Positions 26,759 through 59,359 of a DNA stretch of 64,000 nt are shown in pieces. The notes beneath the pieces were generated by a model, which worked only from the letters and a program-made list of their open reading frames with translations, searched no databases and had not been told where the DNA came from. Every line of letters starts with the position of its first letter. Within the stretch, counting starts at the first letter, position 1. Origin of the DNA: Aureispira anguillae (GTDB lineage Bacteria; Bacteroidota; Bacteroidia; Chitinophagales; Saprospiraceae); the NCBI RefSeq assembly GCF_026000115.1, contig NZ_AP026867.1, positions 279,501 through 343,500 of the forward strand, in the 5' to 3' direction. Both the position numbers and the translations under genes were made by a program.

Positions 26759-26836
26759 CGGGGTTTGGCGCAGTCCGGTTAGCGCACCTGCTTTGGGAGC
26801 AGGGGGCCGCAGGTTCGAATCCTGCAACCCCGACCA
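26759..26836 (+). tRNA. tRNA-Pro(UGG), copy 1
   Basis: The acceptor CGGGGTT pairs with AACCCCG. The loop TTTGGGA gives anticodon TGG, and GGTTCGAATCC is the T-arm. The CCA end is encoded at 26834-26836. Confidence 0.95.
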
Positions 26837-26915
26837 CTTTTAAACAATTCGTTAGTTTTCTAATGGATTGTTTTTTTTTCGACCTTCATAGCATTTTTTA
26901 TTACAATGCATTATT

Positions 26916-26990
26916 CGGGGTTTGGCGCAGTCCGGTTAGCGCACCTGCTTTGGGAGCAGGGGGCCGCAGGTTCGAATCCTGCAACCCCGA
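26916..26990 (+). tRNA. tRNA-Pro(UGG), copy 2
   Basis: All 75 bases are identical to copy 1 (26759-26833). It differs in the 3' end: CTA follows the discriminator, so CCA is not encoded and must be added by the CCA-adding enzyme. Confidence 0.93.
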
Positions 26991-27002
26991 CTACGAAAAT
27001 TC

Positions 27003-37800: not shown

Positions 37801-37960
37801 CTAAACGACTCGCCAATTTTTGTATAGCAGGATTATGTTCATGTAACCCGACTCCATTTAGTTCTTTGTAAAGCTTATATACTAGAATTATCTCATCCTT
37901 TGTCCAACGAACACCAGACTTTAGATTTTTTTCGCCCCCTTTTACTCTTTTATAAGCCAT
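34856..37960 (-). CDS. 1037-aa-class partner of the DUF1998 helicase, DruH-like by position
   Basis: The protein is about 1034 residues from the ATG at 37960; an upstream TTG adds three. The N-terminus (WTKDEIILVYKLYKELN, then NPAIQKLASRLGRTVRS) looks like the small helical DNA-binding domain often found before HNH and related endonucleases. The remaining 900 residues match nothing I recognise. It overlaps the methyltransferase gene by 11 bases and the helicase by 4, so the three are translationally coupled. By size and place next to a DUF1998 helicase it recalls DruH of Druantia type III; this is inference. Confidence 0.65.
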   Translation of the reverse strand: MAYKRVKGGEKNLKSGVRWTKDEIILVYKLYKELNGVGLHEHNPAIQKLASRLGRTVRSTEAQTLMFRNLERSGIYSHGNMNKLTKEVWNEFELKKTSKETEQEEPVFKYKDWNKSLVNHFFNEHLANQEIGCFPTSDELFQEISNFQYSVEDFINAISKEIGALNFFSKLEQLYNNSLPRKLGERVVRKPIPEYFGFIIFIIYALAEDESDNLTIANVYKRINHFGNSVLGDKWSKINSGISKSKLEPIWENLEEWSCQFKKGSLGYFIRHNPNNSNRKYVSRIERHSLFNSSQFSRIIDLLIDDGFIVGKVISKTEWCTFFGKHPNKLKKSQLILKYLTEEGPLQISIVKFLNSYCRQHYTAKTLSSEKAEFRTPPIPLRLCIDRLPSWPNDPISEFYFRALSENLEETILEYADFEYNISLDSTNTSNKLFLDVDLSEGLLIKSGTQRYMTNKNVYWLTKNHEFNEWREAEFPSNDTSFILIIDRDTLDNINISSTIKCNEHELLNTNHFALKFSGLEEAQFDEIYNIYNPYSKIEGKIDLISVFTGDRRKCIFKEFNPIFRYIGPNSSPQIIAINPKTKEKLCTLIHIENSDHLYRIPNTFEYEGQFQIKEEGGKIKSRYNLYFGNLSGEAKNISLPYLKDQEGKNCIELKRGDNDILDIPCDFYKKFDVSKFNQWHMNLFRLFNPKKKGNTLALLNASTWQLSQGDILLQFIAQNQSVSTYDFPKLLRELDSELSLRYSKRIMDHWRHLGYINFQDYGECIKVNPTAILFVRTTVGLRGYLCGHRTSSFINQLKQECEKISIQLIEEKHSNYKEDLYPTKFILQDNDGELSKFLSLKKTMQIDFVNDIEHPLNPTFAVYQLACLYTQRTVKEFLKDIHKNPKYSTDHHRKRVFDTNSLKWIDTTKEVETLPDLSVVRYEGFRDNSMTHIIKVNNQVRLLNELYLGIFSVLDLNKTILFKQKIEKNDEYDLLVPFFLGLPFWIERGLILINAEIPEMQKTQNTPFRVYRNIPLKIIKVIEEKLNQKILTL

Positions 37961-39509
37961 TCGTCTCAATTTTATTTAAAAGTGAATTTATATGGCTACC
38001 TATTTCATAGGCTAACTTTGGCGGAACTGCATTACCTACCTGAGTATATTGAGGTACTTCAAAGCTTCTGTTCTCACCACCTGTAGTTTCTTTTGACTTA
38101 AAGATGAACCAATCTGGAAAACTTTGAATCCTTGCCATTTCTCGGACAGTAAGAACTCGATTTTCGAATATAGAATAGTGGCAAATATCATCAGGAATAG
38201 TAAGTTGTGCAGGTGATGGCAATGTCTGTACAAGGGCCCTTTGAGAGTGTTTCTTAGTTAAAGAGACATCTCTAATGAATTTTTGAAAACTCATTAAAGA
38301 ACTAAACAATGAACCAAAGTTTTTAATTGTTGATTTTAACTCATTGTATAGTTTTTTTATATCATCATTAGCAATTACTAAATTATCTTTTTTCTTTTCT
38401 AAAATAGATTCTTTTAATCCATTTGCATGGTTTAGAATCTGATAAAACAAAAATCTTTTTTTTATTTTATCTGTGTGATTTCTATAATTATGATTATGTA
38501 TTTTATCAAGGGAGCTAAAATTAGATTTAAAAAGTTCGTTGATGGAGTTAACATAACTAGATTTTTTACCACACTTAACATTTATTAAATCATCAATAGC
38601 ATCCTTAACAGATATCCAAGTCTCTTTATTAAAAGTAGTAGGCTTAGGTAAAATATATCCATCAAATAATTCTGTGTTTTTTTCAATATCATAGTAATCT
38701 AAGTCCATGAGATTTAATTTGTCAAAATCAGAGTGGACTTTTGAATAAAAAGATGCAACTTTTAGAAGTATCTTATTTTCAGGGTATTTTTCAAGGACTT
38801 TATAAAAAATATCTTCTCGAAAGGCAACCATTATATATCTGGGCCTATTCTGTGCAATACCATAATATTTAGAATTTAGTAGCATACACACAGGTGCAAA
38901 ACCTTTCTGGGCGAAAGCTTTTGCAACTTCAAACCAGGCATAATATTTTTTCTTGCCATCACGAAATGCAGATAAAATCCCTTTAACATTTTCTAATAAA
39001 ACTACTTTAGGTTTAATTATTTCACAAATTTCTGCAAAATCTAATGGTAATCTATTTTTATAGTTTTCTAATTCTCTTTTTCCTGCAAGACTAAAACTCT
39101 GACATGGAGGGCCTCCAGAAACTAAATCTAATTCTCCTTCATAAGGATTGTTAATATTGTACTCAATTAATTTATTTCTTAAATGTCTTACATCTCCAAC
39201 TAATAAGCTTCCTGATAAGTCGCTTAAATCTTTTTCGAATATTAATTCACAGTTTTCATCTTCGTTATGTGATAATAAGTTTTCTCGGAGCCTTTTTTCG
39301 TAAGATTTTTTAGGATATCGTGAGTGAACCCACTTTACCTTTTCATTAGGTTTGGTTATATCTATATCTAATAGATTAGATGCAAAAGTATTACTAGCCA
39401 TTGGTGAAACTTCATTAGCAAACAGTAGCTCAAAACCTGCGGCTTCCATACCTACTGCCATCCCTCCACAACCTGCAAATAATTCAATATGTTTTCTGTT
39501 TTTTGTCAA
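37950..39509 (-). CDS. DNA (cytosine-5-)-methyltransferase
   Basis: The 519-residue C5 methyltransferase has motif I LFAGCGGMAVGMEAAGF (10-26), the catalytic PCQ with Cys136 in SGGPPCQSFSLAGKRE, ENVKGILS (173-180), QNRPRYIMVAFR, and the terminal QVGNAVPPKLAYEIG. All core motifs are present, so it should be active. The target recognition region (about 250-420) is long. It heads the operon with the DUF1998 helicase, so it likely marks host DNA as self. Type II Druantia and class 2 DISARM also carry such enzymes. Confidence 0.92.
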   Translation of the reverse strand: MTKNRKHIELFAGCGGMAVGMEAAGFELLFANEVSPMASNTFASNLLDIDITKPNEKVKWVHSRYPKKSYEKRLRENLLSHNEDENCELIFEKDLSDLSGSLLVGDVRHLRNKLIEYNINNPYEGELDLVSGGPPCQSFSLAGKRELENYKNRLPLDFAEICEIIKPKVVLLENVKGILSAFRDGKKKYYAWFEVAKAFAQKGFAPVCMLLNSKYYGIAQNRPRYIMVAFREDIFYKVLEKYPENKILLKVASFYSKVHSDFDKLNLMDLDYYDIEKNTELFDGYILPKPTTFNKETWISVKDAIDDLINVKCGKKSSYVNSINELFKSNFSSLDKIHNHNYRNHTDKIKKRFLFYQILNHANGLKESILEKKKDNLVIANDDIKKLYNELKSTIKNFGSLFSSLMSFQKFIRDVSLTKKHSQRALVQTLPSPAQLTIPDDICHYSIFENRVLTVREMARIQSFPDWFIFKSKETTGGENRSFEVPQYTQVGNAVPPKLAYEIGSHINSLLNKIETNGL

Positions 39510-42991: not shown

Positions 42992-45900
42992 ATGGAAATT
43001 AATCACCTTTACCAAACTATTACTAACGAAGAGCTTAGTGAGTTCATGAAAAAGAGGAGAAAAGATTATCTTGATGATCCTCTTCTAATGATAGAAAATT
43101 ATAATACAGAAATTTCAAACACTTCTGAATATTTTGGCCGTCAGTTGCTCGAAATGATTCAGAATGCGAATGATGAATGTGATACAACAAAAGCCAAAAA
43201 GGTATTGATTAAGTTAGATAAGGATAGTCTTATCATTGCTAATAATGGAAATCCTTTTTCAAGAGGAGGTGTTGAGTCTTTATTATATTCTAATCTGAGC
43301 CCCAAGGTAAAAGAAGAAAATAAGGTAGGTCAAAAAGGTCTTGGTTTTCGATCTGTATTAAATTGGTCGGAAGAAATATATATAGCAAGTTATAATCTCC
43401 ATATTCGTTTTTCTAAAACTCACGCTGAAGATTTTCTAAAAGGAATGATTCGTGATAAACCTCAAATTAGAAAAACGATATCCAGTAAAACCAATGTCGA
43501 GTACCCCATTTCTATTCTAAGATGTCCTTTGGTTGAAGACAAAAAAAACTTAAAAAAATTACCTCAGTATGATACTGTAATTGAACTTAAATTAAAAGAG
43601 GATAGTTACCAAGATATTATCGATCAGATAAACAAGGAGATTATTCCTGAAATCCTTGTATTTCTTCATAAACTAGAAGAAATTGAAGTTCAAAGTCCAG
43701 AGCATAACTTTATACTTTCTAAGAAGATAGAACCAGACAAAATAATTGTAACTAAAAGTGATAGATTTTATTCACAAGAAAAATTAGAATCTTCTGTCTG
43801 GTTTCTTCTTGAGGAAAAAGGACAAATAAAAAGTGGTAACCAAACTAAGAATTATGAACTAAAGATAGCTTATAATCCTAACCAAGTGCCAAAGGTTCAG
43901 AAACTATTCTCATATTTTAGAACAGAGGTAGATTTTCCATACCCTGTCTTAGCACATGGAACGTTTGAGTTAAGTGCAAATAGAAATGTCTTAAAAGAGA
44001 ATCAAGATGGCTTCAATAAACTACTGCTAGATAAGCTAGCTTCTTTGCTAGTAAAGTGTGCCTTTAAAATTACGAAAAATGGGGGATGCAATTATGCTCC
44101 TCTAAAGTTAGTTATTCCTTCAATTGGGCAGCACTCGAGTCTAAATACAGATAAATGGAACTTTCATCAGTTACTAAATAATCATATAAAAGAAATCGCT
44201 ATTTTCCCAACGGTAACTGGCGTTTATATAAGACTTAGTGATGCCCCAAAGTTCTATTTAAATAACATTGAGCATTTAATTCCAAAGGATAAAATATATG
44301 AGTTTAAAAACTTATTGCAGTATATAGATGATAAAGGTATTCAAGACTATCTACAAAGATATGGTCAAGAACTTAGATATACAGATAGTGAGCTTACAAA
44401 AAAAATAAATCTATTAATCGAAACTGATTCATTAGAAACAAATCAAAGGGTAGAATGGATTTACTATTTATGTTCAAAGACTTCTAATTTTTATAGCTCT
44501 CAATTTCCTGTTTTGCCCAACTTACTACTAAATTCAGAAGGAATTCCTATTAAAACAGGAGATGAAATTATTCTTCCATCAGATGAAAAGGTTTACACCC
44601 TACCTCAAGGAGTAAATTTTCAATTTATACAAAAGAACCTGTATTTAAGATTAAAAGGGCGTTTTGACAAAGGAGGAACACGCCAAATGGTCGAAAATTT
44701 AAAATTGTATAAAGCTATTGAATATGCGGCAAATGTTGTGATTCAAAAAATAATATCTAATCTAAAAAGTACTATAGATTTAAAGGAAAAACCTATAAAA
44801 GATACAATCTCTATCCTCCACTCAACACTTTATGAAATATATAGAAACCAACCTGAAGATTATAAATTCCCTAGTACAACATCACCTTATTTAATAACTA
44901 GAGAGGGGAATTTAAAACCAGCTAATCAACTCTATTTTTGGAAAGAGTATCAAGGGGGAGAAATAATGGAAGGGTTAATGTTTGAATTAGACTTTGATGT
45001 ATTTGTCGGAACTTTAAATCAAAATGGGTTAGAGAGTAAATTTAAGTCTCCCCTTGAGGCTCATTCATACTTTTCCTGGTTAGGAGTAACACATACCCCA
45101 AGAAAAGTAAATTATATAATTAGGGCACCCAAATTTAGGAATGATGATTACTTAAATTATGCAATCAGAAGTTTAAAATTTCCATATATAGTCTCCTATA
45201 ATAGTGAAAACTATACTCTTCAAGATCTTTCAGACTGTAATACATTTCACGCTAATCTTCTGTGGTATGAATATTTTGATGAAATAATAAATAGTGCAGA
45301 TATTGAATATATATTAGCTTGGTTAATTCATGATAGAGAACTTCATAATAGTATATCCTTTGATACAGAAAGCACTACTTCCTATTTAAAGTTTTATCCA
45401 TATAAAGCTAAGTATAGCAGGGGGGTACAATATTCTGATATAAAATCCTATATACGTTACAAGTTACAATCATGTGAATTCATACCAGTTGGGAATAACA
45501 AGAAAGTGAAACCAGAGGAGTGTTTAATGGAAATAGGGAACTTAGCTCCATTAATTAATTCACCAATAATAGATTTTAATGCTGAAGTTTTTAAAAGTAA
45601 CAAAATAGAGAAAAATCATATTTTATTTATTCTTAAAAGTTTAGGGATAAAAGAGGATTTAAAAGACTTGTCTTTGAATAACATATATCGTTATTTAAAC
45701 CTTCACTCTAAGTGCTTTAATAAAGATAGGAGAAATATCCAAAGTTTCTACATGCTAGTTCTTGAGGCGACTAAGAATTATTTATTGGAAGATTATGAAG
45801 ATTCTGAAGAACGAAAGATATACTTAGAAGAGGGGGTAATCTTAGTTTCCCAAAATGGGCTTACAGATTATGCCTCTATCAATGAGGCTACTTATGTTAA

Positions 45901-47824
45901 TAATCCCAATTTTAGTACAGACTTACTTAACAAACTAAAAATTGCTAAACTACCATCGAGAGCAGGTAATAAGAGAATTCAAACTCTTTTCGGTATCCAA
46001 CCCTTGGATTACATAAAGTTCCATGTGAATCAAGTATATAGTTCAAATCAAAAATTGAATAAAGAATTTGTAGAAGAACTAAATGATATTAAACCATTCT
46101 TATTTACATATCGATTCAATAAAGGTTTGAAGAAGACACAAATTAATGATGAGTTATCTTCTCTTAAATCACTAAAGGTTATAACATGCTATGATTTAGA
46201 TGTTGTTTATAAATTAAATGATAAGGAACATCAACTAGAGTTAAAAGAGTATGAATATATTCAGGATGAATCTTCTAAAGTTTATTATATAAAAATAAAT
46301 AGGAGCTACTCTAGTTATTATGATTTGAAAAAAAATTTTAGATTCAAAGAGACTGTTTCAGATATTATATGTGGTGCACTGAAAGTTAGCGAGAATAGAA
46401 AAGACTTTAAAGAATTACTTGGAGAAGAAGCTAGTACCTGGGCTCTTATTCTAACGAGGGAATTTCTCAATTATAATGAGTTAGAGAAAGAAATAGCAGA
46501 AAAATTTGATGGTGCTCTAACAAGTGAACAACGTTTCTGGAAAATAATTTTTGAAGTAACTAAGAAAGAATACAACTCTCAAGATTTGATAAGTTTTGAT
46601 GCTATTTATAAAAGGTTAGAAATATCTTTGAGTAAAGATCAGTTTCTACACTTTTATAGACAGATTGATTATCAGAATTTATCTGCTTTCGAAAATATAG
46701 CACCTTTTCAATGCTTATTTAAGGCACTAAGTATTGATGTGCAAGATTTTAATTTAGCAGGTTATAAAAGCTTGAATGTTGAAGACTATTGGCGAAATCG
46801 AATGAGATCTTTCCATCAAGATTTTATATTAAGATATTCTACTTTCTTATATACTCAGGGAGATTCACATTCATTTTTAGAGAACAGGAATACCCTAAAA
46901 GAATTTAATAGATTCCAATATGAAAATTCATTCTTTTTTGATGTTGAGGAGCACCATAGGCAAGTATTATGTAATACTTTCTTAGATTTATCATATGATA
47001 AAATTCTATCTACAAAGGCAATTGATTTAGAAAGCATATTCCATGAAAATTTAACCTCTTTTAAAGCTCAACTAAAAAAGGAAGGCTACTTTGATAATAA
47101 GCTTTTTCATGAAAAGATGAGAAATAATAATTTTAAAGATGCAATATATTTCAATGAGATAATAGACTTAATAGAAGAGTTTCGGTTGTTACATAATCAG
47201 AATCAGAACGAAAGTAATGGTAGTAATGTAAATATAGGAGGAGAGCAAATTTCATTTGATGATACTAATATTGAAAGCCTGATGACCGCTATAGAGGCAA
47301 ATGTTAAAACAGGAAAGATAAAAATAACGGATTATGCTCCAGAGAAAGTGGAAACTTCTGCTACTACAGGAAAAAAGACAGGAAAACAAACCTCTAACAG
47401 CAATCAAAATAAAAATAGACCAGAAGATATAGGGTTTATTGGAGAAAAGTATGCCTATGAACTACTTAAACAGAAGTATGATAAGGTTACTTGGGTTTCT
47501 GAATACGCCTTAAAGGCAGGTTGTTCATATGGAACTGATGGGTTAGGTTATGACTTTGAATGTGTACAAGGTAATGAGACAAGATTTGTAGAAGTAAAAA
47601 GTTCAGTAACATCTAGTTGTTCTTTCTATATAAGTAAGAATGAGGTTAATACAGGGCATACTCATGAAAGAATATATGATATTCTTGTAATAACAGATTT
47701 GTTATCTGATAATATAAATTGTAAGTATCTTAAAAATATATTTGAATATGAGAACAATGAAAGTTTTTTAACGAATAGTAAATTCCTTGTTGAAAATGAT
47801 ACTTATAGAATTAGGTTTAAGTAA
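42992..47824 (+). CDS. GHKL (Hsp90/sacsin-like) ATPase with C-terminal DUF3883
   Basis: The 1610-residue protein has an N-terminal Bergerat ATPase fold: E54 and N58 in EMIQNANDE, the G1 box ANNGNPF (84-90, with Asn in place of the usual Asp) and G2 GQKGLGFRS (113-121). This resembles sacsin and Hsp90 N-domains. The middle 1300 residues are unrecognised. The C-terminus (about 1475-1600) is a DUF3883 domain with GEKYAYELL, GYDFE and FVEVKSS, a PD-(D/E)XK-like D...E-x-K arrangement. Such proteins occur in bacterial defence loci. It leads a five-gene operon. Confidence 0.8.
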   Translation: MEINHLYQTITNEELSEFMKKRRKDYLDDPLLMIENYNTEISNTSEYFGRQLLEMIQNANDECDTTKAKKVLIKLDKDSLIIANNGNPFSRGGVESLLYSNLSPKVKEENKVGQKGLGFRSVLNWSEEIYIASYNLHIRFSKTHAEDFLKGMIRDKPQIRKTISSKTNVEYPISILRCPLVEDKKNLKKLPQYDTVIELKLKEDSYQDIIDQINKEIIPEILVFLHKLEEIEVQSPEHNFILSKKIEPDKIIVTKSDRFYSQEKLESSVWFLLEEKGQIKSGNQTKNYELKIAYNPNQVPKVQKLFSYFRTEVDFPYPVLAHGTFELSANRNVLKENQDGFNKLLLDKLASLLVKCAFKITKNGGCNYAPLKLVIPSIGQHSSLNTDKWNFHQLLNNHIKEIAIFPTVTGVYIRLSDAPKFYLNNIEHLIPKDKIYEFKNLLQYIDDKGIQDYLQRYGQELRYTDSELTKKINLLIETDSLETNQRVEWIYYLCSKTSNFYSSQFPVLPNLLLNSEGIPIKTGDEIILPSDEKVYTLPQGVNFQFIQKNLYLRLKGRFDKGGTRQMVENLKLYKAIEYAANVVIQKIISNLKSTIDLKEKPIKDTISILHSTLYEIYRNQPEDYKFPSTTSPYLITREGNLKPANQLYFWKEYQGGEIMEGLMFELDFDVFVGTLNQNGLESKFKSPLEAHSYFSWLGVTHTPRKVNYIIRAPKFRNDDYLNYAIRSLKFPYIVSYNSENYTLQDLSDCNTFHANLLWYEYFDEIINSADIEYILAWLIHDRELHNSISFDTESTTSYLKFYPYKAKYSRGVQYSDIKSYIRYKLQSCEFIPVGNNKKVKPEECLMEIGNLAPLINSPIIDFNAEVFKSNKIEKNHILFILKSLGIKEDLKDLSLNNIYRYLNLHSKCFNKDRRNIQSFYMLVLEATKNYLLEDYEDSEERKIYLEEGVILVSQNGLTDYASINEATYVNNPNFSTDLLNKLKIAKLPSRAGNKRIQTLFGIQPLDYIKFHVNQVYSSNQKLNKEFVEELNDIKPFLFTYRFNKGLKKTQINDELSSLKSLKVITCYDLDVVYKLNDKEHQLELKEYEYIQDESSKVYYIKINRSYSSYYDLKKNFRFKETVSDIICGALKVSENRKDFKELLGEEASTWALILTREFLNYNELEKEIAEKFDGALTSEQRFWKIIFEVTKKEYNSQDLISFDAIYKRLEISLSKDQFLHFYRQIDYQNLSAFENIAPFQCLFKALSIDVQDFNLAGYKSLNVEDYWRNRMRSFHQDFILRYSTFLYTQGDSHSFLENRNTLKEFNRFQYENSFFFDVEEHHRQVLCNTFLDLSYDKILSTKAIDLESIFHENLTSFKAQLKKEGYFDNKLFHEKMRNNNFKDAIYFNEIIDLIEEFRLLHNQNQNESNGSNVNIGGEQISFDDTNIESLMTAIEANVKTGKIKITDYAPEKVETSATTGKKTGKQTSNSNQNKNRPEDIGFIGEKYAYELLKQKYDKVTWVSEYALKAGCSYGTDGLGYDFECVQGNETRFVEVKSSVTSSCSFYISKNEVNTGHTHERIYDILVITDLLSDNINCKYLKNIFEYENNESFLTNSKFLVENDTYRIRFK

Positions 47825-47865
47825 GCCTTTTATGAAATTATTTATATCTAATGTGTATTTTATTA

Positions 47866-47886
47866 CTGTACACATAGAGTGTACAG
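47866..47886. promoter_or_regulatory. Perfect palindrome just before the SF1 helicase gene
   Basis: CTGTACAC (47866-47873) and GTGTACAG (47879-47886) flank ATAGA. It ends 3 bases before the ATG at 47890, so it would either bind a dimeric repressor or hide the ribosome site in a hairpin. Confidence 0.5.
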
Positions 47887-47889
47887 CTG

Positions 47890-50800
47890 ATGTTTTTCTT
47901 TGTTCTAACAAGGAAAGAAGACACACAAATAATTGTTTGTCTAGTTAATAGAACCCCTAAAGATATGTATTACGAAGAGGATCTTGGATTTGGAAAGAAA
48001 ACTATTAATGTTGTTATCAGATTTGATAACAAGGCTGTCTCTTGGTTGCAAAAAGAGTCAAGATACTCGTTTGAAGATTTAAAAAGATTTTTAAATGACT
48101 CTCATATAGAGTGTTTCTTTAAGAAAAAGAATGAAGACGAACACTATATTATTATTCCGATTACTTCAGAAAATATTAATTTGAAGTTGACCTTAAAATG
48201 GTTGCCTAAAACTCATGATTATAAGGTTGTGCTCTCAAAAAAGACGAAACTAGTCGTTGAAGAGTTTAATACTAACCTAAATGATTCATATACGTTAGCT
48301 AGGTTGTGTAGTTATGAATTGGTAGGGTTTAATGATAACCCTTTTCCTAGCAAAGAATTTGCTGAGCTTCATAAGGAAATTTGCAATCTAGAAATATCTC
48401 CAAAGGCATATGTTGAAAATCAAAGAGATATTTGGACAAAATGGATTGAAGCTCAGGAGTTAATCTTAAGTAATAATTCTACCCCATTCAGTGTAAAAAA
48501 ATATTATCCACTACTTCCTATAAAGGGAAAAGATGGAAATATATTCAGATATCAATTTCAGGTTGATTTAGTAAAAGAGGAGAATCCTGAATATAAAGAA
48601 TTAGAAAAAGAGTTGCGTAAACAGCTAGGCTTGGACATAAAAGTAGATGGAGATACAGGAGAAACTCATATGAGGTTGAAGGATATATACAAAGGACTTG
48701 ATGTATTAATAAATCGAGCTCCTTTTTGTGAAACATACTCCAGAAAAGAAAAATTATTATGCCTTTTTAAGCTTAAGCCAATTTTTGTTTATAAAAAGAT
48801 TGAAGCTTTATTAAATGATCTTGGGAGAAAAGTTAAAGTTTGGCAGGGAGATAAATCAGGTTTAATTGAAATCTACTCAAAGAACAATAGAACAGTAAAT
48901 GTCCCCAAGAGTATCATAAAAAAATATTCTTTGAAGAGAGAAGCTTTTATTGGGCGGATATTTATTGTTGATAGCAATGGGTTGAAGATTGAAGACTCGA
49001 TTCCTTCTCCAATAAAAACAAACAATTATAATAGAATTAAAGACCAATATAATTCTTTGAAAAAAGTATTGTTCAATAAACGTGAAAAAGAAATAGAAGC
49101 AGGAGCAAATAGCATTCATTTTCAAATTAGAGAGGTTTATTCTTTTGTTCAAAATTCAGAAGAAAATGAATTTGATGATTTATTTTGGCAAGATTTAAAA
49201 CAAGATTTGTTTGGCTTAGGGTTTGACTCAGATGATGTTAGGCTAAATTCAGAGAAAAGAATAATTGCATTTAATTTCATTGATTTCGATGAACTTGAAG
49301 ATAAAATTGAAAAAATAAAAGGGTTAAATAAATTCTATCCTGATAGGGATCCACTAGCAGAAGATTTTGAATTTAGAGTAAAAATCGATTTACTAGCGAA
49401 GAAAAATAAAAAGCAATTATTTGATGAAAAGCTAAAATTCCTTCATGGCACAGAGTTCTATATTGAAAGAGTAAATAAGAAAGGAAAAATAGAGAGACCC
49501 TCAATCGGTATTTTGAACTATTATCAATCTTCGATGTCTTCCTTGCTATTTGCAATTCCTTTAAGAACAAAAAAGGATTTAAAGCAAGTAAAAAAATTAA
49601 AAAAATATCTAGAGGAGGATTCAACAATTATTACAGAGGTTTATCCTAACCTGAGGGGAGATGAGGTTAAAATTGGTTGGCTAAATGAAGCAATGGCTAA
49701 AATCAATACGCCACAGGACCAAATGAATAAGAAGCCTGTGAATACTAAGTTAGGAGAATTTATTTTTGACTCATCTAAGGCGGAGGAGATTTACAAAGAT
49801 CTTTCAACTGATTCAGAGGAATGGAAGCAACTAGTGAAGCATGAATTGTTACAACTTAATGATTCCCAAAGAAAAGCTGTTTTGTCAGCGTTATACGCAA
49901 GAGATTTAGCTCTTCTCCAAGGACCTCCAGGAACAGGGAAAACAACGGTTATTGCTGAAATGATTTGGCAAATGATTAGAGTTAACCAAAAGCAAAAGGT
50001 TCTATTGACTTCAGAAACTAATTTAGCCGTGGATAATGCACTAGTAAAACTGTTAAATGGAAATCATACTTTGGTTAAACCCTTACGATTTGGGAAAGTA
50101 GCAAAACTAGAAAATGAAGGTAAGAAGTACTCCTTTGATAGAATCATGAAATGGATTGATAAGGATTATGGAGAAACAAATTTAGAAGATGAAGAAGAGA
50201 ATGAAGAAGAATCTTACCTTGACTCACTTGGGGAGCTGGATTTAGAAGACGAAGAGGAGGTAGATGAGAATCATGCAGATAATGCCGTTCAGATTTGGAT
50301 GAATAGAATAGCATCAAATGCACAAATCCAAAATCCAAAATATTCTGAAATTATAAAGGATTGGGTCACAGATATGGCCATGCCTGAAACAGAGATGAAG
50401 GAACTTTTCAAAGATAAGTATATTAAACATGCTAATGTCGTAGGTAGTACAAGTAGTTCAGCAGGTAGTATCACTTTTGCATGTGAATATCAAAAACTAT
50501 TTAATCCAGATAAAAAAGTAGAACTATCATATTACGATAGAGTTTTAGAAGAGAGAGTAATTGAGGAAGAGTGTATTGGAAAGCTTTACAAAAGAATTAA
50601 GAATGTACAAGAGAGGTATGAGGATTTTGATGGAAGATTTAAAGGAGTCAATAATATTTTAGAAAGGTTTATCCCTCTAGAGTTCGATATAGTTATTACA
50701 GATGAAGCAAGTAAAGCTACCCCTCCTGAATTGCTACTTCCCATGTGTTTTGGAAAGAAAAATGTAATCATCGGAGATCATAAACAGTTGCCTCCAATGC

Positions 50801-51729
50801 TACATGAAAAGAGTTTTGAAGAGACATTATTGGCCCTAGAATCAGAAGAGGCTAAAGAATTAGCCGAAGAAATAGATAAAGACTTTGTTGGGATTTCTCA
50901 ATTCGAAAGGTTAATTACTCATCCTAAAGTATCTCCCTCTATTAAGAGTTCATTTAATTTGCAATATAGGATGCATCCTCAAATTAATAAAGTAATTAAG
51001 CAGTTTTATTCTGATTCAGAGGAAGGACTAGAACCTGCTCCTCAGTTACTTGAGCATGCTGACGATGCAAATCTGAATAATCCATTTTCCAGACATCATG
51101 GGTTATATTACAAAGGATTTATTACTCCTTTTCAACATGTTATTTGGGTGGATGTAGATGCTCCTGAGCAGGAAAGTGGTACATCAAGAGTTAATGAGAC
51201 CGAAGTAGAAGCGATTAAGTTAGTTCTAAAAATGCTTAGAAATTCAAATGGTTTTGACGAATATATGAACCATTGGAGTACTGATAAGAAAGAGGATCAA
51301 GAAATAGGTCTGATTACTTTTTATGGGCATCAAGTCAAAAAACTTAAAGAAGCTGCTAAATATGCGAGAGAGGAGTTAAAAATCCCTATACGACTCAATA
51401 CAGTTGATAAGTTCCAAGGGATGGAGCGGAATATTATTATTGTATCAACTGTGAGAAGTAATAAGTTAAAACTAGATTCTGGAAAAGAGGTAAGGAACTC
51501 AGATATAGGATTTGCTAAATCTCCAAAGAGATTAAATGTGGCTCTATCAAGAGCCAGAAGGCTTTTGATTATTGTAGGAAATAAAGATTTTTTTAAAAGT
51601 TATATTGATACAGAAGGGAATGCCATATATAGAAATGTGATTAATGTGATTGAGTCAGAGCAAAAGACTCAAAATGAACAATCAATAATTAAATACGAAG
51701 ATTTAGTGAAGCTCGATAGTAATGATTAA
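47890..51729 (+). CDS. SF1 helicase (Upf1/Dna2-like) with long N-terminal extension
   Basis: The 1279-residue protein has the superfamily 1B helicase core in the C-terminal half. It shows Walker A LLQGPPGTGKTT (about 676-690), motif II DEASKATP (about 938), motif III GDHKQLPP, motif IV NLQYRMHP, motif V VDKFQGMERNIIIVS and motif VI NVALSRARR. A very acidic insert lies at about 765-795. The first 650 residues are unrecognised. The next gene overlaps its end by 8 bases. An alternative ATG at 47965 is possible. I infer a nucleic-acid motor of the five-gene system. Confidence 0.85.
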   Translation: MFFFVLTRKEDTQIIVCLVNRTPKDMYYEEDLGFGKKTINVVIRFDNKAVSWLQKESRYSFEDLKRFLNDSHIECFFKKKNEDEHYIIIPITSENINLKLTLKWLPKTHDYKVVLSKKTKLVVEEFNTNLNDSYTLARLCSYELVGFNDNPFPSKEFAELHKEICNLEISPKAYVENQRDIWTKWIEAQELILSNNSTPFSVKKYYPLLPIKGKDGNIFRYQFQVDLVKEENPEYKELEKELRKQLGLDIKVDGDTGETHMRLKDIYKGLDVLINRAPFCETYSRKEKLLCLFKLKPIFVYKKIEALLNDLGRKVKVWQGDKSGLIEIYSKNNRTVNVPKSIIKKYSLKREAFIGRIFIVDSNGLKIEDSIPSPIKTNNYNRIKDQYNSLKKVLFNKREKEIEAGANSIHFQIREVYSFVQNSEENEFDDLFWQDLKQDLFGLGFDSDDVRLNSEKRIIAFNFIDFDELEDKIEKIKGLNKFYPDRDPLAEDFEFRVKIDLLAKKNKKQLFDEKLKFLHGTEFYIERVNKKGKIERPSIGILNYYQSSMSSLLFAIPLRTKKDLKQVKKLKKYLEEDSTIITEVYPNLRGDEVKIGWLNEAMAKINTPQDQMNKKPVNTKLGEFIFDSSKAEEIYKDLSTDSEEWKQLVKHELLQLNDSQRKAVLSALYARDLALLQGPPGTGKTTVIAEMIWQMIRVNQKQKVLLTSETNLAVDNALVKLLNGNHTLVKPLRFGKVAKLENEGKKYSFDRIMKWIDKDYGETNLEDEEENEEESYLDSLGELDLEDEEEVDENHADNAVQIWMNRIASNAQIQNPKYSEIIKDWVTDMAMPETEMKELFKDKYIKHANVVGSTSSSAGSITFACEYQKLFNPDKKVELSYYDRVLEERVIEEECIGKLYKRIKNVQERYEDFDGRFKGVNNILERFIPLEFDIVITDEASKATPPELLLPMCFGKKNVIIGDHKQLPPMLHEKSFEETLLALESEEAKELAEEIDKDFVGISQFERLITHPKVSPSIKSSFNLQYRMHPQINKVIKQFYSDSEEGLEPAPQLLEHADDANLNNPFSRHHGLYYKGFITPFQHVIWVDVDAPEQESGTSRVNETEVEAIKLVLKMLRNSNGFDEYMNHWSTDKKEDQEIGLITFYGHQVKKLKEAAKYAREELKIPIRLNTVDKFQGMERNIIIVSTVRSNKLKLDSGKEVRNSDIGFAKSPKRLNVALSRARRLLIIVGNKDFFKSYIDTEGNAIYRNVINVIESEQKTQNEQSIIKYEDLVKLDSND

Positions 51730-53995
51730 TGATTTAGAATATAACATCCTTAAAGCGATTAGAACGCATAAGCAAGTCACAGAGGTCTATCTTGGCTTTC
51801 TAGAATTTTCATGGGAATTTTCACTTGCAGAGTATTCCGCAACGTGTATTGAAGCAATTGATCTATCCTTGTTAGATAAAGCAATTTGTGGATTGTTACA
51901 AGTGGAAGATTCTTTGAGTCTTGAAAAAATTGGAAATATTCTAGGTTTTAATGTTGAGGATAAACCCAATGAAAAAAAGTATAAAGATTTAGCAGAATAT
52001 GAGCTTCTTAGAGAAGGGATTCAACATCTTTGTGATTTTGAAATGATAGAATGTAATGATATTCATTTTTCTGAATGTAGAATAACTCAAACAGGGAGAG
52101 AATATGCAGGTAAAAAGAAAAAGTTTAGAACAATAGAAGAGAAAGTGTTTTCATTATTCTTTGATGTTGAAGGGGGAATACATAAAAATGCCAAAAAACT
52201 ATTTGGTAATAAGTTAGGTAGTTCTGTAGAAGTACCATTATCAGATTCGATTGATTATGAGGACGAGGCTTTTGTTAAGTCCTTTGCAACACATCAAATA
52301 CCTGGCATTTATGATTTAGAAAAAATGAATTCATTCAAAGATTTAGAATTGAAAAAAGTGAATTCATATCAAACTGAATTAATTGCAACATTCTTGTATT
52401 CTATCGAAAATAAGCAAATTAGGCTAGTTGTGTATAATCCCTCTACTCAAGAAGTTGATAAAGGCTTTACTAATTTGTTTACAGAGTCACCTGAGTTAAA
52501 GAAAGAACTAATATCAGACTTTTGGCGAAATTCCTCAAAACTAAATACTTTGTCAAGGTATAAGGAAACACCTAAAATGTGGAGGGATAATATACTTTCT
52601 ATAAATAAGAAACTCAATTTATTAGTAGAGAAAAAAAATATAAAAGGGGCAAAAAAAGCTTTAAATCAATTTAGGTTATCTGAGAATTTCAGTCAATATA
52701 AACTCTTTTGCTTCTGGCTTCCTAAGGTGATAGAGTTAGCAAAAGGTGAGGTTTACTTGTCATTAAAGAGCTATGATAGGAAAGCTATTTTATTAGTAAA
52801 AGAAGTAATTCAAAAGATATCTGACAAGGATAAATTTTTATTCATTGATTTAGAGGTTGATAAGGATAATCCATACTTGATTGAAGAAGTATTGGATTTA
52901 AAAGAGACAGCTAATTCGACAAATAATTCATATGTGTTATTTGCTGATGAAGTAGAGTGCTTTCAATTAATTTGTGATGTTGGAGGAAAACGAAGGGTTT
53001 ATTCAGAAGAGAACTATAGAATAGAGTTAATGGTAGAAAGCAAAAAAAACTATTTTGATCTGTTATTTGTCTTAAAAACAGAAACATCAATTGATGATTT
53101 AACAGATGAGATTAATGAAATTAAAAATGATTTTGCAGAAGAAAGTGTATCAAATATAATAAGCGATATTCAGGAATATATGGATGATTATTCTCCTTCG
53201 GAGGAAAATGATTTGAAAGATTATAAACTTCTAGAATCTTGTACTAATAAAACAATTCCCTTTGCGAAGCTTGACAATTATACTAAATTAATCGAAGAAG
53301 TAGAAGTGAGAAAAGCTAGTTTATTGGAAGATGTAAAAACTATTCGAAGAGAAATCTTAAAACAAAAAATAAAAGATTTTCAATCCTTTTCTGCCTCATC
53401 ATATAGAGATTGTCAAAACTTTAGGAATCAAATTGAAACATTTAAGTTAGATTGTTTGGACTCCGAACTTTCATTGTTTGAAGAATTAGATAACTTAATA
53501 ACTAAGCAAGAGTTTAGTTTTAAGTTGATTGAACATAAAAACACTATAATTATCTGTTATGATATATTCTTAAATGATGCTCAAATTCTCCAAAAAGTAT
53601 ATGCCAAAGATAAAGTTGTATTGTCATCAAATATTTTTAAGAGATTAGAAAGTTGGTCAGAACTTCCAGAGTATAAAACCATTGTTCCTAGAGCATTAAG
53701 TGAAATTCAGAACTTTCAAAAAAAGAAGAGAATAACGTTGAATCAAGGTAAAAAAGAAGTTTTGGAAAATAAATTTAAGACTTCACCTTTTTCTGAAATA
53801 CTATCAATGGGAAGGGTATATTCTGACCGAAGTGAAAACCCTATTATTTTAACAAATCACCCTAAACTAATAGAAGAAGCTAGATTGCTTGGCTTAAATA
53901 CTATTTCTGAAAAAGCATTTAATGATATTATCAGTTTGAAAAATAAACTAGGTAAATCTAAATCTAGAAATAAATTTAAAAAGAATAAAAACTAA
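51722..53995 (+). CDS. Winged-helix protein with a PIN-like C-terminus
   Basis: The 757-residue protein opens with a helix-turn-helix-like region (about 50-140, ending ITQTGREYAG). Long coiled-coil segments occupy about 480-600. The last 150 residues resemble a PIN nuclease domain: IIICYDIFLND, then KVVLSSNIFKRLESW, then NPIILTNHPKLIEEARLLG. The Asp usual at the 'TNDPKL' position is His, so the metal site may be incomplete or the match may be structural only. The start overlaps the helicase gene by 8 bases. The PIN call is my inference. Confidence 0.6.
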   Translation: MINDLEYNILKAIRTHKQVTEVYLGFLEFSWEFSLAEYSATCIEAIDLSLLDKAICGLLQVEDSLSLEKIGNILGFNVEDKPNEKKYKDLAEYELLREGIQHLCDFEMIECNDIHFSECRITQTGREYAGKKKKFRTIEEKVFSLFFDVEGGIHKNAKKLFGNKLGSSVEVPLSDSIDYEDEAFVKSFATHQIPGIYDLEKMNSFKDLELKKVNSYQTELIATFLYSIENKQIRLVVYNPSTQEVDKGFTNLFTESPELKKELISDFWRNSSKLNTLSRYKETPKMWRDNILSINKKLNLLVEKKNIKGAKKALNQFRLSENFSQYKLFCFWLPKVIELAKGEVYLSLKSYDRKAILLVKEVIQKISDKDKFLFIDLEVDKDNPYLIEEVLDLKETANSTNNSYVLFADEVECFQLICDVGGKRRVYSEENYRIELMVESKKNYFDLLFVLKTETSIDDLTDEINEIKNDFAEESVSNIISDIQEYMDDYSPSEENDLKDYKLLESCTNKTIPFAKLDNYTKLIEEVEVRKASLLEDVKTIRREILKQKIKDFQSFSASSYRDCQNFRNQIETFKLDCLDSELSLFEELDNLITKQEFSFKLIEHKNTIIICYDIFLNDAQILQKVYAKDKVVLSSNIFKRLESWSELPEYKTIVPRALSEIQNFQKKKRITLNQGKKEVLENKFKTSPFSEILSMGRVYSDRSENPIILTNHPKLIEEARLLGLNTISEKAFNDIISLKNKLGKSKSRNKFKKNKN

Positions 53996-54000
53996 ATACT

Positions 54001-54636
54001 ATGTCTTGTTTTGAATCCTCAACATTTTTGAAGAATCCAGAAATCATGAATCAAGATTTTTTAATACAAGCTTGTGAACAGTTAGGCTGGAAATATAAGG
54101 TGAAGGATGGTGTCCTTAAAGTTTATAATGCAAAACAGGGGGCTCATTTGCATGGAGAGCCTGCATTAATTGTAAAGAATAATACAATTACTCACAATAG
54201 TTTTTACATGAAGAATGGGAAAGAACTCGTTGCTCAACTTCAATCAGAGTTCTATCAAATAAATGTATCATATGCAAAGGAAACTATTATTTCCGAGTTT
54301 GAATCTGTAGGGTTTATGCTTAAGAATGATAATGATTTTGAACCAAATGAGAAAGAGGTCGATAGTTTTTTTATGGTGGCATACTCAAAGTTAGAGAATG
54401 AAGATGAGCCATATGTAGAAATTAGATTTACGATATTGTATGATGGAACAATTGTATCGGATTCTAATTATATTCCATCAGACATACACGAGTTGGCAGA
54501 TGAAGCGATGGAGAAAATAGACGAGGCTTTTGGCAGTAAAAGAAGAGAAGGAGAAGAGATTATACGAAAAGAGGTCCCTATTGAATATCAACATAAATCC
54601 TATTGTACAAATAATAAAATAAAAGCTAAAAACTAA
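54001..54636 (+). CDS. DUF1257 (Ycf35-like) / DUF2997-like fusion
   Basis: In this 211-residue protein, residues about 1-125 follow the DUF1257 pattern (MSCFESSTF, then ACEQLGWKYKV). Residues about 140-180 (VEIRFTILYDGTIVSDS, then ELADEAMEKIDEAFG) resemble the small DUF2997 protein. These two families are usually separate genes beside a Ycf46-like AAA ATPase, which is exactly the next gene here. The ATG 5 bases after the previous stop is chosen because it restores the MSxF start of the family. The biochemical role is unknown. Confidence 0.65.
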   Translation: MSCFESSTFLKNPEIMNQDFLIQACEQLGWKYKVKDGVLKVYNAKQGAHLHGEPALIVKNNTITHNSFYMKNGKELVAQLQSEFYQINVSYAKETIISEFESVGFMLKNDNDFEPNEKEVDSFFMVAYSKLENEDEPYVEIRFTILYDGTIVSDSNYIPSDIHELADEAMEKIDEAFGSKRREGEEIIRKEVPIEYQHKSYCTNNKIKAKN

Positions 54637-54646
54637 AATTTATATT

Positions 54647-56272
54647 ATGCAGAAAGAATTTTTAGAATTAGAGAATATGCTCGATGCTAGATATCCTATA
54701 GTATATTTAGCATCCCCCGAATATAGTAGGATAGTTCAGACTGTTAGACGTATTGCTTTTCAAAAAAATTATGTATTCCATACGTGGGATATTGCAGCAG
54801 GACTTCAAACTCATACCAGAAAGTTGAATACAACTGATTTAGGTGATGTAATCAAGCATCCTGACCATAAAACAACTAAAAGTCCTGATGGGCTTTTAGA
54901 AGAAATATTGAAAGGGAAAGAAGAATTTCTAAATAAAAAAGAAATCTTCTTATTAGAGGACGCACATAAATATTTTAACAGGGGAGATAAATTTGTTGTA
55001 CTACTTAGAAAACTGACACATTTTCTTAAGAAATATAACAAGCATATTTTATTGTTGTCTCCGTTTAGTAAATTACCTGTAGAAATAGAAAAATATATAA
55101 CTGTGGTAAATATTCCTCTACCAGATAAGAATGATTTAGAAACGAGGTTAGATGCAGTTAATCGTGGTGCCCCTGAAATCAATCCTGATCTAAAGAAGAT
55201 GATTTTGGACGCAGCTGCTGGGTTAACTGACACAGAAGCTGACCTAGCTTTTCGCTTGGCAAAAGTAAAAACAGGATTAAATAGTAAGGATGCAATTAAA
55301 GCTATTATTAGAGAAAAAGAACAAATAATAAAGAAGAGTGGTATCCTTGATTACTATCATGTAAATGAAAAAATGAATACTAGTGTAGGAGGCTTAGATA
55401 GGTTAAAAGAATGGTTGACACTGAGAAAAAAATCTTTCGAGAGAAAGGCAAAAAAATTCGGACTTACTGAGCCCAAAGGTATTTTATTACTAGGTGTTCC
55501 AGGAACTGGAAAAAGCTTAACCGCAAAGAGTATTTCCCAAGAATGGAATCAGCCTTTACTTAAGCTGGATATTGGACGTGTTTTTCAAGCTGAGGTAGGA
55601 AGCAGTGAAAACAATATTCGAAATGCAATAGCAACAGCTGAAGCAGTTGCCCCATGTATTCTTTGGATTGATGAAATCGAAAAAGGTTTAAGTGTAGGAG
55701 GTGGTGAGAAGGATGGTGGGACTAACTCTAGAGTCTTTTCGACGATTCTTACATGGATGCAAGAAAAAACAAAAGCAGTTTTTGTTGTGGCTACAGCAAA
55801 TAATATCAGCAATTTGCCACCTGAACTTCTTAGAAAAGGACGTTTTGATGAAATTTTCTTTGTTGACTTGCCTACAAAAAAAGAACGGGAAGATATATTT
55901 AGAATACATCTTAAGAAATATAATCAGGAAAAAGCAATAACTAATTTTGAATCTATTTTAGAGTCAACAGTCCACTTTAATGGAGCTGAAATAGCAGAAG
56001 CTGTTAAAGAAGCTATGTTTATAGCTTATCTAGAAGATTCGGAAAATCCTGAAATTAGTTCAGCTCATTTACTACAAGCAATCAAAGCTACAGTTCCATT
56101 AGCTAAAACTATGAGAACAAAAATTAATAAACTTAGAGAATGGGCTAAGACTAGAGCTAGATTTGCAAGTTCAGATAAAAATAATGAAGATTTACCTCTA
56201 CTTCTAAATGATGATAAAAGTAAAGAGGAAGATACTAGAACACAAAGGGAAATTCAAGAAGATATATTTTAG
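54647..56272 (+). CDS. Ycf46-like AAA+ ATPase
   Basis: The 541-residue protein has the Ycf46-type N-terminal domain (ARYPIVYLASPE, HTWDIAAGLQ), followed by a AAA+ module with Walker A GVPGTGKS (283-290), Walker B LWIDEIEKG (339-347), sensor 1 VATANN and an arginine finger region LLRKGRFDEIF. Such ATPases pair with DUF1257/DUF2997 proteins, as in the gene 10 bases upstream. It probably remodels or loads other members of the operon. It is the last gene of the five-gene unit. Confidence 0.85.
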   Translation: MQKEFLELENMLDARYPIVYLASPEYSRIVQTVRRIAFQKNYVFHTWDIAAGLQTHTRKLNTTDLGDVIKHPDHKTTKSPDGLLEEILKGKEEFLNKKEIFLLEDAHKYFNRGDKFVVLLRKLTHFLKKYNKHILLLSPFSKLPVEIEKYITVVNIPLPDKNDLETRLDAVNRGAPEINPDLKKMILDAAAGLTDTEADLAFRLAKVKTGLNSKDAIKAIIREKEQIIKKSGILDYYHVNEKMNTSVGGLDRLKEWLTLRKKSFERKAKKFGLTEPKGILLLGVPGTGKSLTAKSISQEWNQPLLKLDIGRVFQAEVGSSENNIRNAIATAEAVAPCILWIDEIEKGLSVGGGEKDGGTNSRVFSTILTWMQEKTKAVFVVATANNISNLPPELLRKGRFDEIFFVDLPTKKEREDIFRIHLKKYNQEKAITNFESILESTVHFNGAEIAEAVKEAMFIAYLEDSENPEISSAHLLQAIKATVPLAKTMRTKINKLREWAKTRARFASSDKNNEDLPLLLNDDKSKEEDTRTQREIQEDIF

Positions 56273-57622: not shown

Positions 57623-59359
57623 ATGGTACTGGAAAAATATTTTAATTGTGATAATCTGAAATTAGCTTGGGAGCGAATGTTACGATGGTCTGATAGTACT
57701 ATTAAGGACCACTGGGGGATAAGTGTTTTTGAGGCAAATTTGGATGATAATTTAGGAAGACTATCTAATAAGCTAATAAATAACCAATATGAGCCAATTA
57801 GACCTCAGAAATTCTATGTCCCAAAATCATCTGGGACGCAAAGAACAAAGACTATCCTTATGATTGAAGATGCGATTGTCTATCAGGCAATTGTCAATAT
57901 AATAGCATATGAGAATTATGATAAAATTGAGGAGTTTTACCTTTGTGTTTTTGGAAATGTATTAAATGAAGAAGTAAAGTTTGGAGAAAATTTAATTTCT
58001 AATAAAAGTGATCTAAAAAGTCCCCCTAGTTATTTTTTTTATAAGCCATATTTAAATTTATATAACGAGTTTTCAAACTTCGTTAATGGAGTAATCCTTG
58101 ATGATGAAGTTAACTATAAATTAGAGACTGATATTACAGGTTTTTTTGATAGTATACCTCATTTTAGTCTTCTTGAAAAATTGAATAAAGATTATTTCGT
58201 AGAGGAAGACATCTTAGAACTGTTATCCCTTTTACTTAATTGTTGGTCTGGAACAAAATCTAATATGACAATCGGGGTAGGTATTCCTCAAGGTCCAGGT
58301 CCTTCCCATTTTTTAGCAAATATTCTTCTGTATGATTTAGATGAATACTTTATGGAGAAGATGAATTTTGATGAAACTATCTACTATTGTAGATATATGG
58401 ACGATATACGAATATATAGTTCTGATACAAGAGAGCTAAGAGATTGTTTAATGTATTTAGATACGTACTTAAAAGGTTTTGCTTTATCAATTAATTCTAG
58501 CAAAACGAGTATAAGAGAGATTGTTGATCGAAAAAATGATGACTCGATAATTGACTTTCACGTAGATTATAAAGCTACGGATATGGAGGTGTCTAAATTT
58601 TTAAAAAAGTTGTATGAGGAACACAATTTAACATCAGAGTTTTATTTTAAAGAAAATAAAAGCAGTAGTAATCTTACTGAAAATGAGTCTGCAAAAGAAC
58701 TTAAACAGGTTGAAGGAAAGGAGAATGTTATTAAGTTTTGGAAGGATGAAATTAATGATGTTGAAGATATTTTGCTTAATTCTTTTGAGAATAAAGATGG
58801 TAGCCTTTCTATTCCCTTAACTAACGTCACATCAGATCGATTCTTTGTGAACTTGAGTTATCGATATAGAATAGCAATACGTAGTATAAAAGAACAAGAT
58901 GCTGATATAGAAGAAATAGATTATTCTAAAACTTCAAATTACTGGTTGTTCTTGATTAAAGAATATCCTTGGCGAGCTAATTATTTCTGTCTTGTCTTGA
59001 ATGAGTTTCCTTCACTTCCTGAACTTAAACAGCATCTAATTTCTCTTGTGGAGGAGTTTGAAGCTTATGAATGGATCACCCATCATTTATTTCTTACCTT
59101 AAGTATTAAACAGGTATTTACTGATGACGAATTAAAGTCCCTGCTCTATACATTTGGTCATCTAACAGATTACGCCAAACTTGGCTTATACAAATTACTA
59201 ATAGCTAAGCTTGAAAGTGATGATGTTGATGAATTAATTGATGTATCAATAAAGAAAGAGCCCAATGCGTATTTGAGAAAAACTTTAATGAGGATTTATA
59301 TGGATCGTAAAAGAGGAAAATTAGAATTGGAACCCATGCTTAATTCTTTTGGTTTATGA
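57623..59359 (+). CDS. Reverse transcriptase of the Abi/DRT kind
   Basis: The 578-residue protein has RT motifs in order: the N-terminal YEPIRPQKFYVPKSSG and EDAIVYQAIVN, motif A TDITGFFDSIPH, motif B GIPQGPGPSHFLANILL and the catalytic motif C YMDD (258-261) in CRYMDDIRIYS. It lacks group II intron maturase and endonuclease domains. The C-terminal half is helical, like the repeat domain of Abi/UG reverse transcriptases. It starts an ATGA-coupled cassette with a HEPN and an HD protein, so I infer an antiphage defence RT. No retron-type msr/msd could be identified upstream. Confidence 0.85.
   Translation: MVLEKYFNCDNLKLAWERMLRWSDSTIKDHWGISVFEANLDDNLGRLSNKLINNQYEPIRPQKFYVPKSSGTQRTKTILMIEDAIVYQAIVNIIAYENYDKIEEFYLCVFGNVLNEEVKFGENLISNKSDLKSPPSYFFYKPYLNLYNEFSNFVNGVILDDEVNYKLETDITGFFDSIPHFSLLEKLNKDYFVEEDILELLSLLLNCWSGTKSNMTIGVGIPQGPGPSHFLANILLYDLDEYFMEKMNFDETIYYCRYMDDIRIYSSDTRELRDCLMYLDTYLKGFALSINSSKTSIREIVDRKNDDSIIDFHVDYKATDMEVSKFLKKLYEEHNLTSEFYFKENKSSSNLTENESAKELKQVEGKENVIKFWKDEINDVEDILLNSFENKDGSLSIPLTNVTSDRFFVNLSYRYRIAIRSIKEQDADIEEIDYSKTSNYWLFLIKEYPWRANYFCLVLNEFPSLPELKQHLISLVEEFEAYEWITHHLFLTLSIKQVFTDDELKSLLYTFGHLTDYAKLGLYKLLIAKLESDDVDELIDVSIKKEPNAYLRKTLMRIYMDRKRGKLELEPMLNSFGL

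Follow-up and report, generated by a model that had tools for sequence, protein, structure and literature searches.

A candidate Bacteroidota defence module in Aureispira anguillae that joins a helicase–effector pair to Ycf35/Ycf46-type proteins

Helicase–effector pairs with immune roles are represented by Mokosh and by the CnuH-CnuE proteins of CoCoNuT systems. In Mokosh, according to PMC11672841, the COG1112 helicase and the PLD nuclease are encoded by different genes, and a kinase domain is present. The general pattern set out in PMC11090510 is one of UPF1-like helicases followed by winged helix-turn-helix (wHTH) nuclease effectors (CnuH-CnuE), a pairing proposed there to couple the helicase to an exchangeable nuclease, PLD included, and to act on RNA; the nuclease domains of some CnuE proteins are retained but inactivated. 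ARMADA type II, as outlined in PMC12458937, ends with a YprA-like and then a GajB-like helicase, and a cyanobacterial gene cluster, DUF2997-ycf35(DUF1257)-fed7, is given in PMC4284462. Here we describe five adjacent genes, A to E, in a 64,000-nucleotide stretch of Aureispira anguillae (NZ_AP026867.1, positions 279,501 to 343,500; host genome of 7.8 Mb in three contigs), hereafter the window, in which B-C-D-E are best read as a Mokosh/CnuHE-like helicase–effector pair combined with a Ycf35/Ycf46-type module (Table 1). Kin of Ycf35 and Ycf46 are conserved in cyanobacteria and algal plastids, and to our knowledge no role has been assigned to them.

A preliminary description of the window had taken A-E for one undescribed antiphage or anti-plasmid system with two motors and two putative nucleases. 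Its coordinates for five adjacent plus-strand open reading frames (ORFs) are confirmed exactly: all five frames are intact, and the gaps A-B, B-C, C-D and D-E measure 65, −8, 5 and 10 bases by ORF ends. The GHKL, superfamily 1 (SF1) and AAA+ motif calls hold as well, with a sacsin-type domain in A, AAA_11/AAA_12 in B and Walker motifs in E, as do the two motors (SF1 helicase and AAA+ ATPase) in a probably antiphage role. The five-gene extent is not supported. We consider it probable, with some reserve, that B-C-D-E is a self-contained, horizontally moving Bacteroidota defence module, that A is separate, and that the nuclease of C has been swapped among relatives, its sites being lost in the window copy.

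Conservation and mobility of the four-gene set

A scan of genome_contigs based on an alignment of D and two peptide patterns returned 16 loci, all titled Bacteroidota. B and C stand upstream and E downstream at 15 of these, in the order of the window, more often than chance would give; at L013 (loci carry our own labels) the contig is truncated and only the end of B is present. A further locus with the same B-C-D-E set lies in genome G226 (L006), and with the locus of G218 recognized as that of L025, the relatives total 16. Co-occurrence elsewhere, which the preliminary description had envisaged for all five proteins, was found for four of them (B, C, D and E) and not for A. C was found in 5 of 395 genomes of the phylum (own genome included; three of the five partial) and D in one of 396 genomes of the order, namely the window's own, a distribution consistent with a recent single acquisition. 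The D and E proteins of the window are 57–61% and 68–69% identical, respectively, to flavobacterial relatives.

The loci of Lutibacter citreus (L010) and Lacinutrix (L011) have 8728 base pairs (bp) in common at 99.7% identity. This segment opens some 400 bp ahead of B and closes some 220 bp past E; the DNA upstream of it differs, and the L010 contig ends soon after it. L010 also shares 8385 bp with L006 at 95.4%. At L006, direct repeats of 244 and 93 nucleotides (94% and 91%), 8669 bp apart, bracket exactly B-C-D-E. A 115-nucleotide piece of this repeat has 20 matches in G226, several of them in clusters a few kilobases (kb) apart; these clustered copies resemble a cassette array, and an integron-like arrangement of the L006 repeats is a conceivable reading. 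Searches of plasmids and phages gave no match to C, and those of plasmids and viral contigs none to D.

A is not part of this pattern. No A homologue was detected by tblastn (E up to 0.1) at L006 or L010-L025, an absence that is informative for the 12 of 16 relatives with at least 1 kb of DNA upstream of B, and A is missing at all 12. Conversely, neither D nor E occurs at the seven other TmtA loci inspected, among them L008 and a Hymenobacter plasmid (L034). Genomes with a TmtA relative number 4 among 395 in the phylum (E 1e-20) and 3 among 396 in the order (E 1e-30), the window's own being counted in both. Between A and B lies a terminator-like hairpin, found once as against a mean of 0.0 (standard deviation 0.2) in 50 shuffles and also picked up by a palindrome scan. 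Homologues of B start at about residue 26 of the window ORF, which places the probable start of B downstream (Table 1) and widens the A-B gap to about 140 bases. Scanned for a Bacteroidetes-type promoter, this gap yielded no more than a 5-of-6 match, which falls within the end of A; the background is 1.9 per kb. The candidate in which A-E form a single five-gene system was rejected on the two sets of absences, and the earlier claim to that effect is not supported. Judged from these alignments, B-C-D-E is a conserved gene set that moves independently of A, and A is probably a separate TmtA-type defence gene standing by chance ahead of it.

The surroundings include defence genes. The Druantia-like cassette and RT_UG19-like gene noted earlier do flank the window locus, and 16 of 17 flank proteins of relatives (picked by eye from 9 of 16 relatives' loci and compared without a control region) match PADLOC defence models, each of the nine loci giving at least one match. 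They include type IIG enzymes (L006, L016), PDC-S73 (L011), a weak PDC-S26 match (L014), methyltransferases with a DUF262-type Orf5 protein (L012), REase_II (L017), a short Argonaute with its partner (L023) and a weak helicase match (L025). At L016 and L018 a YprA/DruE-like helicase begins at most 40 bases after E and is followed by a GajB-like helicase; at L016 a type IIG/PglX-like gene precedes B-C-D-E.

In the window itself, one tRNA-Ser and two tRNA-Pro genes (26620-26991) lie ahead of the part rich in defence genes, where they may be the boundary of an island. Repeat-rich proteins that look by eye like tetratricopeptide repeat (TPR) proteins are encoded on the minus strand on both sides of A-E (41593-42309 and 56274-57437), the downstream gene ending one base after E.

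Table 1. Positions of the genes, domains and context features (aa, amino acids; window positions unless a locus is named)
Feature	Position	Strand	Remarks
A: TmtA-type protein, sacsin-like GHKL ATPase with C-terminal DUF3883/NOV_C	42992..47824	+	1610 aa
DUF3883/NOV_C domain of A	47441..47710	+	residues 1484-1573; Pfam NOV_C E 5e-11
Terminator-like hairpin between A and B	47866..47886	+	CTGTACAC-5-GTGTACAG, then T-rich DNA
B: UPF1/IGHMBP2-like SF1 helicase	47890..51729	+	ORF 1279 aa; probable start 47965
C: effector-type protein	51722..53995	+	757 aa; family alignment, Pfam, AlphaFold, Foldseek
PLD-like domain of C	52688..53086	+	about residues 323-455, limits inferred from model; no HxK, no GSxN
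PIN-fold domain of C	53537..53926	+	about residues 606-735; motif table against ten intact relatives
D: small two-part protein resembling a DUF1257 (Ycf35)-DUF2997 fusion (weak)	54001..54636	+	211 aa
E: Ycf46-like AAA+ ATPase	54647..56272	+	541 aa
Druantia-like cassette (context)	28923..39509	-	DruE 1497 bits; DruF/DruL-like weak; DruM/MTase_II
Reverse transcriptase, RT_UG19-like (context)	57623..59359	+	364 bits
Module with trailing YprA/DruE-like and GajB-like helicases	L016 12323-20643; L018 10544-18870
L006 direct repeats, about 340 bp each	6650-7000 and 15319-15669		genome G226

Domain composition of the encoded proteins

B belongs to the UPF1/IGHMBP2-like SF1 helicases. It matches Pfam AAA_11/AAA_12 (E 2e-42) with intact SF1 motifs, and 260 residues separate its Walker A from its DEAS motif. 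Its best PADLOC match is MkoA (PDLC03920, 350 bits; PDLC03921, 303 bits), and against the IGHMBP2 family model it scores 203 bits, below the cut-off of that model. No kinase family appears among its Pfam matches at E up to 1. Helicases related to B also occur at L009 (6001-16464) and L040 (7762-16060), there followed by very large, mutually related proteins, one annotated as DarT-like; the next protein after the large one at L009 looks by eye like a macro-domain protein.

C looks like an effector with one live nuclease per clade, either PIN or PLD, and none visible in the window copy. The latter has no Pfam match of its own at E <0.1. In an alignment of 17 members, window copy included, PIN_4 was matched in ten (best E 1.7e-22; not in the window copy), all of which keep DTN, E, D and D and lack HxK and GSxN. 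In six members (L020-L025) HYK and GS[YF]N are kept and the PIN domain is missing altogether. The window protein shows CYD in place of DTN, R in place of E, and F and H at the later two D, so that all four acidic PIN positions are lost, and the PLD motif (HxK, GSxN) is absent too. The reciprocal PIN/PLD pattern and the loss of site residues in the window are both read from this alignment.

The AlphaFold model of window C (predicted local distance difference test, pLDDT, 83.9; predicted template modelling score, pTM, 0.55) gave Foldseek matches to TrmBL2 (E 5.7e-4), SauUSI (1.0e-3), NgoAVII (2.5e-3), 3ix7 (1.2e-3) and SMG6 (2.2e-3), only the first two matches in the list, both TrmBL2, reaching E 0.001 or better. 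Because of these matches to TrmBL2, to SauUSI/NgoAVII and to 3ix7/SMG6, the modelled protein is read as a winged-helix N-terminal part, a PLD-like middle, a helical linker and a C-terminal PIN fold. A search of solved structures with the C family profile returned nothing at E <0.029. The PLD-type C protein of L020 matches a Mokosh MkoB-like PLD protein (E 4e-7). To the eye, proteins of the PLD clade begin with an IF2_N-like segment, for which Pfam gave no match. The earlier label of winged-helix/PIN-like protein is therefore sound as a fold, given PIN_4 in 10 of 17 members and the wHTH, PLD-like and PIN model matches, and finds no Pfam match in the window. The count of two putative nucleases fares worse: with the PIN positions of C lost, the only intact-looking nuclease motif among the five genes is that of the DUF3883 domain in A.

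E carries a Pfam AAA domain (E 6.5e-31) with intact Walker motifs. In tblastn its residues 8-509 align with a plasmid AAA ATPase at 45% identity, and residues 7-508 with a Geminocystis AAA ATPase at 43%, which has DUF1257 and DUF2997 genes nearby. We take E to be a Ycf46-like protein, a name given to it earlier that accords with its AAA domain and its full-length similarity to plasmid AAA ATPases. Around relatives of E, DUF1257 and DUF2997 genes are annotated close by in three of five plasmid records (L031, L033, L035), and DUF2997 alone in a fourth (L032), where the stretch begins at the start of the record.

D is likely a DUF1257-DUF2997 fusion, an assignment that gene context favours and direct tests support weakly or not at all. 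Neither DUF1257 (PF06868) nor DUF2997 (PF11211) gives a Pfam match in window D; DUF1257 is matched in 3 of 17 family members (best E 0.038). With hhalign, DUF1257 reached E 0.018 over 25 columns, and four annotated DUF2997 proteins a probability of 20% and E 0.0011 over 16 columns; both alignments are weak. For the structural model of D (pLDDT 79.2), Foldseek searches of the viral and PDB libraries returned nothing at E 0.001 or better, and the D family profile matches none of the solved structures searched. The fusion proposed from the first inspection of the window thus retains the support of the genes around E relatives and lacks that of Pfam or a strong profile alignment.

A matches the PADLOC model TmtA (PDLC03964) over its full length (residues 8-1610, 1139 bits) and contains a sacsin-type ATP-binding domain (NCBIfam P_loop_sacsin). 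TmtA is presumably the Tiamat protein. A restriction-nuclease-like motif, E...D...EVK, is kept in its DUF3883 domain; the motif is also kept at L034, L036 and L037, has a DVK variant at L038 and is not kept at L008 (all read by eye). DUF3883 is listed as a novel restriction endonuclease (REase) domain in a table of PMC3710099. At L008 (12163-19012) the TmtA-like gene overlaps the next one, whose product joins an SF1 helicase to a PIN domain with intact motif. A single strand of L046 (221-19901), from another genome of the genus Aureispira, encodes in succession MkoA, MkoB, a type IIG enzyme, TmtA and a YprA-like helicase, and at L037 (4810-15962) a TmtA-like gene sits within what appears by eye to be a type I restriction operon.

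Proposed mechanism and competing readings

In the mechanism we propose for the module, B would engage, sense or track on foreign nucleic acid. RNA or single strands are the likelier substrate, RNA being suggested by the combination of a UPF1-like helicase with PIN. The winged-helix part of C would couple B to the nuclease carried by C, which is predicted to be PIN in one clade and PLD in another. D and E may serve as adaptor and AAA+ remodelling motor, and would load, activate or strip the helicase–nuclease complex. Because both sites of window C have lost their motif residues, the cut must in this copy come from elsewhere or be lost: the protein may act by binding alone, borrow a nuclease in trans (perhaps from A), or have given up cutting. 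Defence function, substrate, the physical coupling of B-C and D-E, and the role of D-E are what we infer from these features.

Several observations count against the four-gene module as we describe it. Support for the putative defence role comes from sequence comparison. L019 carries D alone. Divergent loci will have been missed since the D scan relied on two peptide patterns, and the apparent limit to Bacteroidota may partly be a search effect. The clade counts for C overstate independence because L006, L010 and L011 are near identical, and the flank matches are support rather than measured enrichment because they come from nine of the 16 loci, with no control region. As for D, the DUF1257 model has no match anywhere in the window's own genome, the E relative on a Treponema plasmid (L030) stands next to no gene annotated as DUF1257 or DUF2997, and DUF1257 membership as a proven assignment was rejected, the Pfam, own-genome and hhalign tests being negative or weak.

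The alternatives differ in where they place A and how much function they leave to the window copy. A-E might act together in the window, TmtA with its DUF3883 having been recruited upstream to supply the cut after the PIN of C decayed. Only the window combines TmtA in front with loss of both C sites, and the DUF3883 motif of A is intact; L008 offers a mirror image, a motif-less TmtA-like protein directly before an SF1 helicase–PIN fusion whose PIN is intact, and at L046 TmtA belongs to the gene run with MkoA and MkoB described above. Yet this is one locus, set against 0 of 12 testable relatives with TmtA and 0 of 7 other TmtA loci with D or E, and a terminator-like hairpin and about 140 bases separate A from B. 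As two loci cannot establish the link, we regard joint action as distinctly improbable. A bolder form, in which the Ycf35/Ycf46-type pair is the control motor of a helicase–nuclease immune complex and the window has traded a dead PIN for the DUF3883 of TmtA, strikes us as a long shot. Keeping A apart corrects the five-gene reading, which would have merged two systems.

The window copy could alternatively be a decaying remnant without function, retained by linkage in a defence island. The loss of all four acidic PIN positions would fit, as would the presence of D in the window's genome alone among 396 of the order, but all five frames and the helicase and AAA motifs are intact, and D and E still keep the identities to flavobacterial relatives given above; we think decay rather unlikely. 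Equally doubtful to us is that B-C-D-E is a divergent Mokosh or CoCoNuT-type helicase–effector system with D-E as a dispensable extra. The match of B to MkoA, that of the PLD region of L020 C to an MkoB-like protein, and the existence of helicase and downstream effector pairs without D-E (L009, L040, L042) speak for it. D-E, however, is present at 15 of 15 loci having C, B has no kinase domain, no McrBC-like neighbour was seen among the ORFs inspected, and window C lacks the PLD motif where ten relatives use PIN instead. The four-gene module remains the reading we prefer.

Comparison with described systems

By sequence comparison A-E appear to match no single named system, and only A passes, as TmtA; the earlier statement that no named system fits is upheld for the locus as a whole and fails for A, which an existing PADLOC model covers. 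To Tiamat/TmtA the window contributes A alone, B-C-D-E not being part of TmtA. Assignment fails for Mokosh because the kinase and the PLD motif are missing in the window, for CoCoNuT because of McrBC, and for ARMADA because of gene content.

Likeness to Mokosh type I lies in B, which falls in the COG1112-type SF1 helicase group of MkoA (350 bits), and in the PLD-type C proteins, which match an MkoB-like PLD protein. B differs in having no kinase domain, whereas the N-terminus of MkoA at L046 matches PD-T4-6 models; window C has a PLD-like fold without the motif, which is kept in 6 of 17 members, ten using PIN; and the account of Mokosh in PMC11672841 includes neither D nor E. With CoCoNuT the locus may share the general CnuH-CnuE pattern, in which a winged-helix protein with exchangeable nucleases comes after a UPF1-like SF1 helicase. 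The CnuH of types II and III carries a large insertion after Walker A, and in B 260 residues lie between Walker A and DEAS; window C has the TrmBL2 winged-helix match and the PIN and PLD folds, with their catalytic residues missing. Here D and the Ycf46-like AAA+ protein take the place of the McrB/McrC-type gene: neither a McrB-type GTPase nor McrC was found in the five genes or in nine flanking window proteins scanned against PADLOC. The arrangement at L016 and L018, where B-C-D-E is followed by YprA/DruE-like and GajB-like helicases, recalls the end of ARMADA type II as outlined. No BrxHII-like gene was seen beside the relatives, however, a PglX-like/type IIG gene is seen upstream at L016 only, and the window's own YprA-like helicase, DruE, is encoded on the opposite strand as part of the Druantia-like cassette. 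Ycf46, DUF1257 and PIN domain go unmentioned in the main texts of PMC11090510 and PMC12458937, and among the titles listed from the open-licence literature none concerns defence by a system in which DUF1257, DUF2997 or Ycf46 is the core.

E is a full-length relative of plasmid ATPases encoded near DUF1257 and DUF2997 genes and in this resembles the Ycf46/Ycf35/DUF2997 sets. What sets the locus apart from them is that D appears as one protein of 211 residues, in fixed company with a helicase and an effector of nuclease type. B-C-D-E would thereby tie helicase–effector immune pairs (Mokosh, CnuHE) to the Ycf46/Ycf35 group and could offer a tractable bacterial assay for the action of a Ycf46-type AAA+ motor, while the use of one nuclease at a time, PIN or PLD, would make it a clear case in which the exchange of effectors beneath a constant sensing core can be tested.

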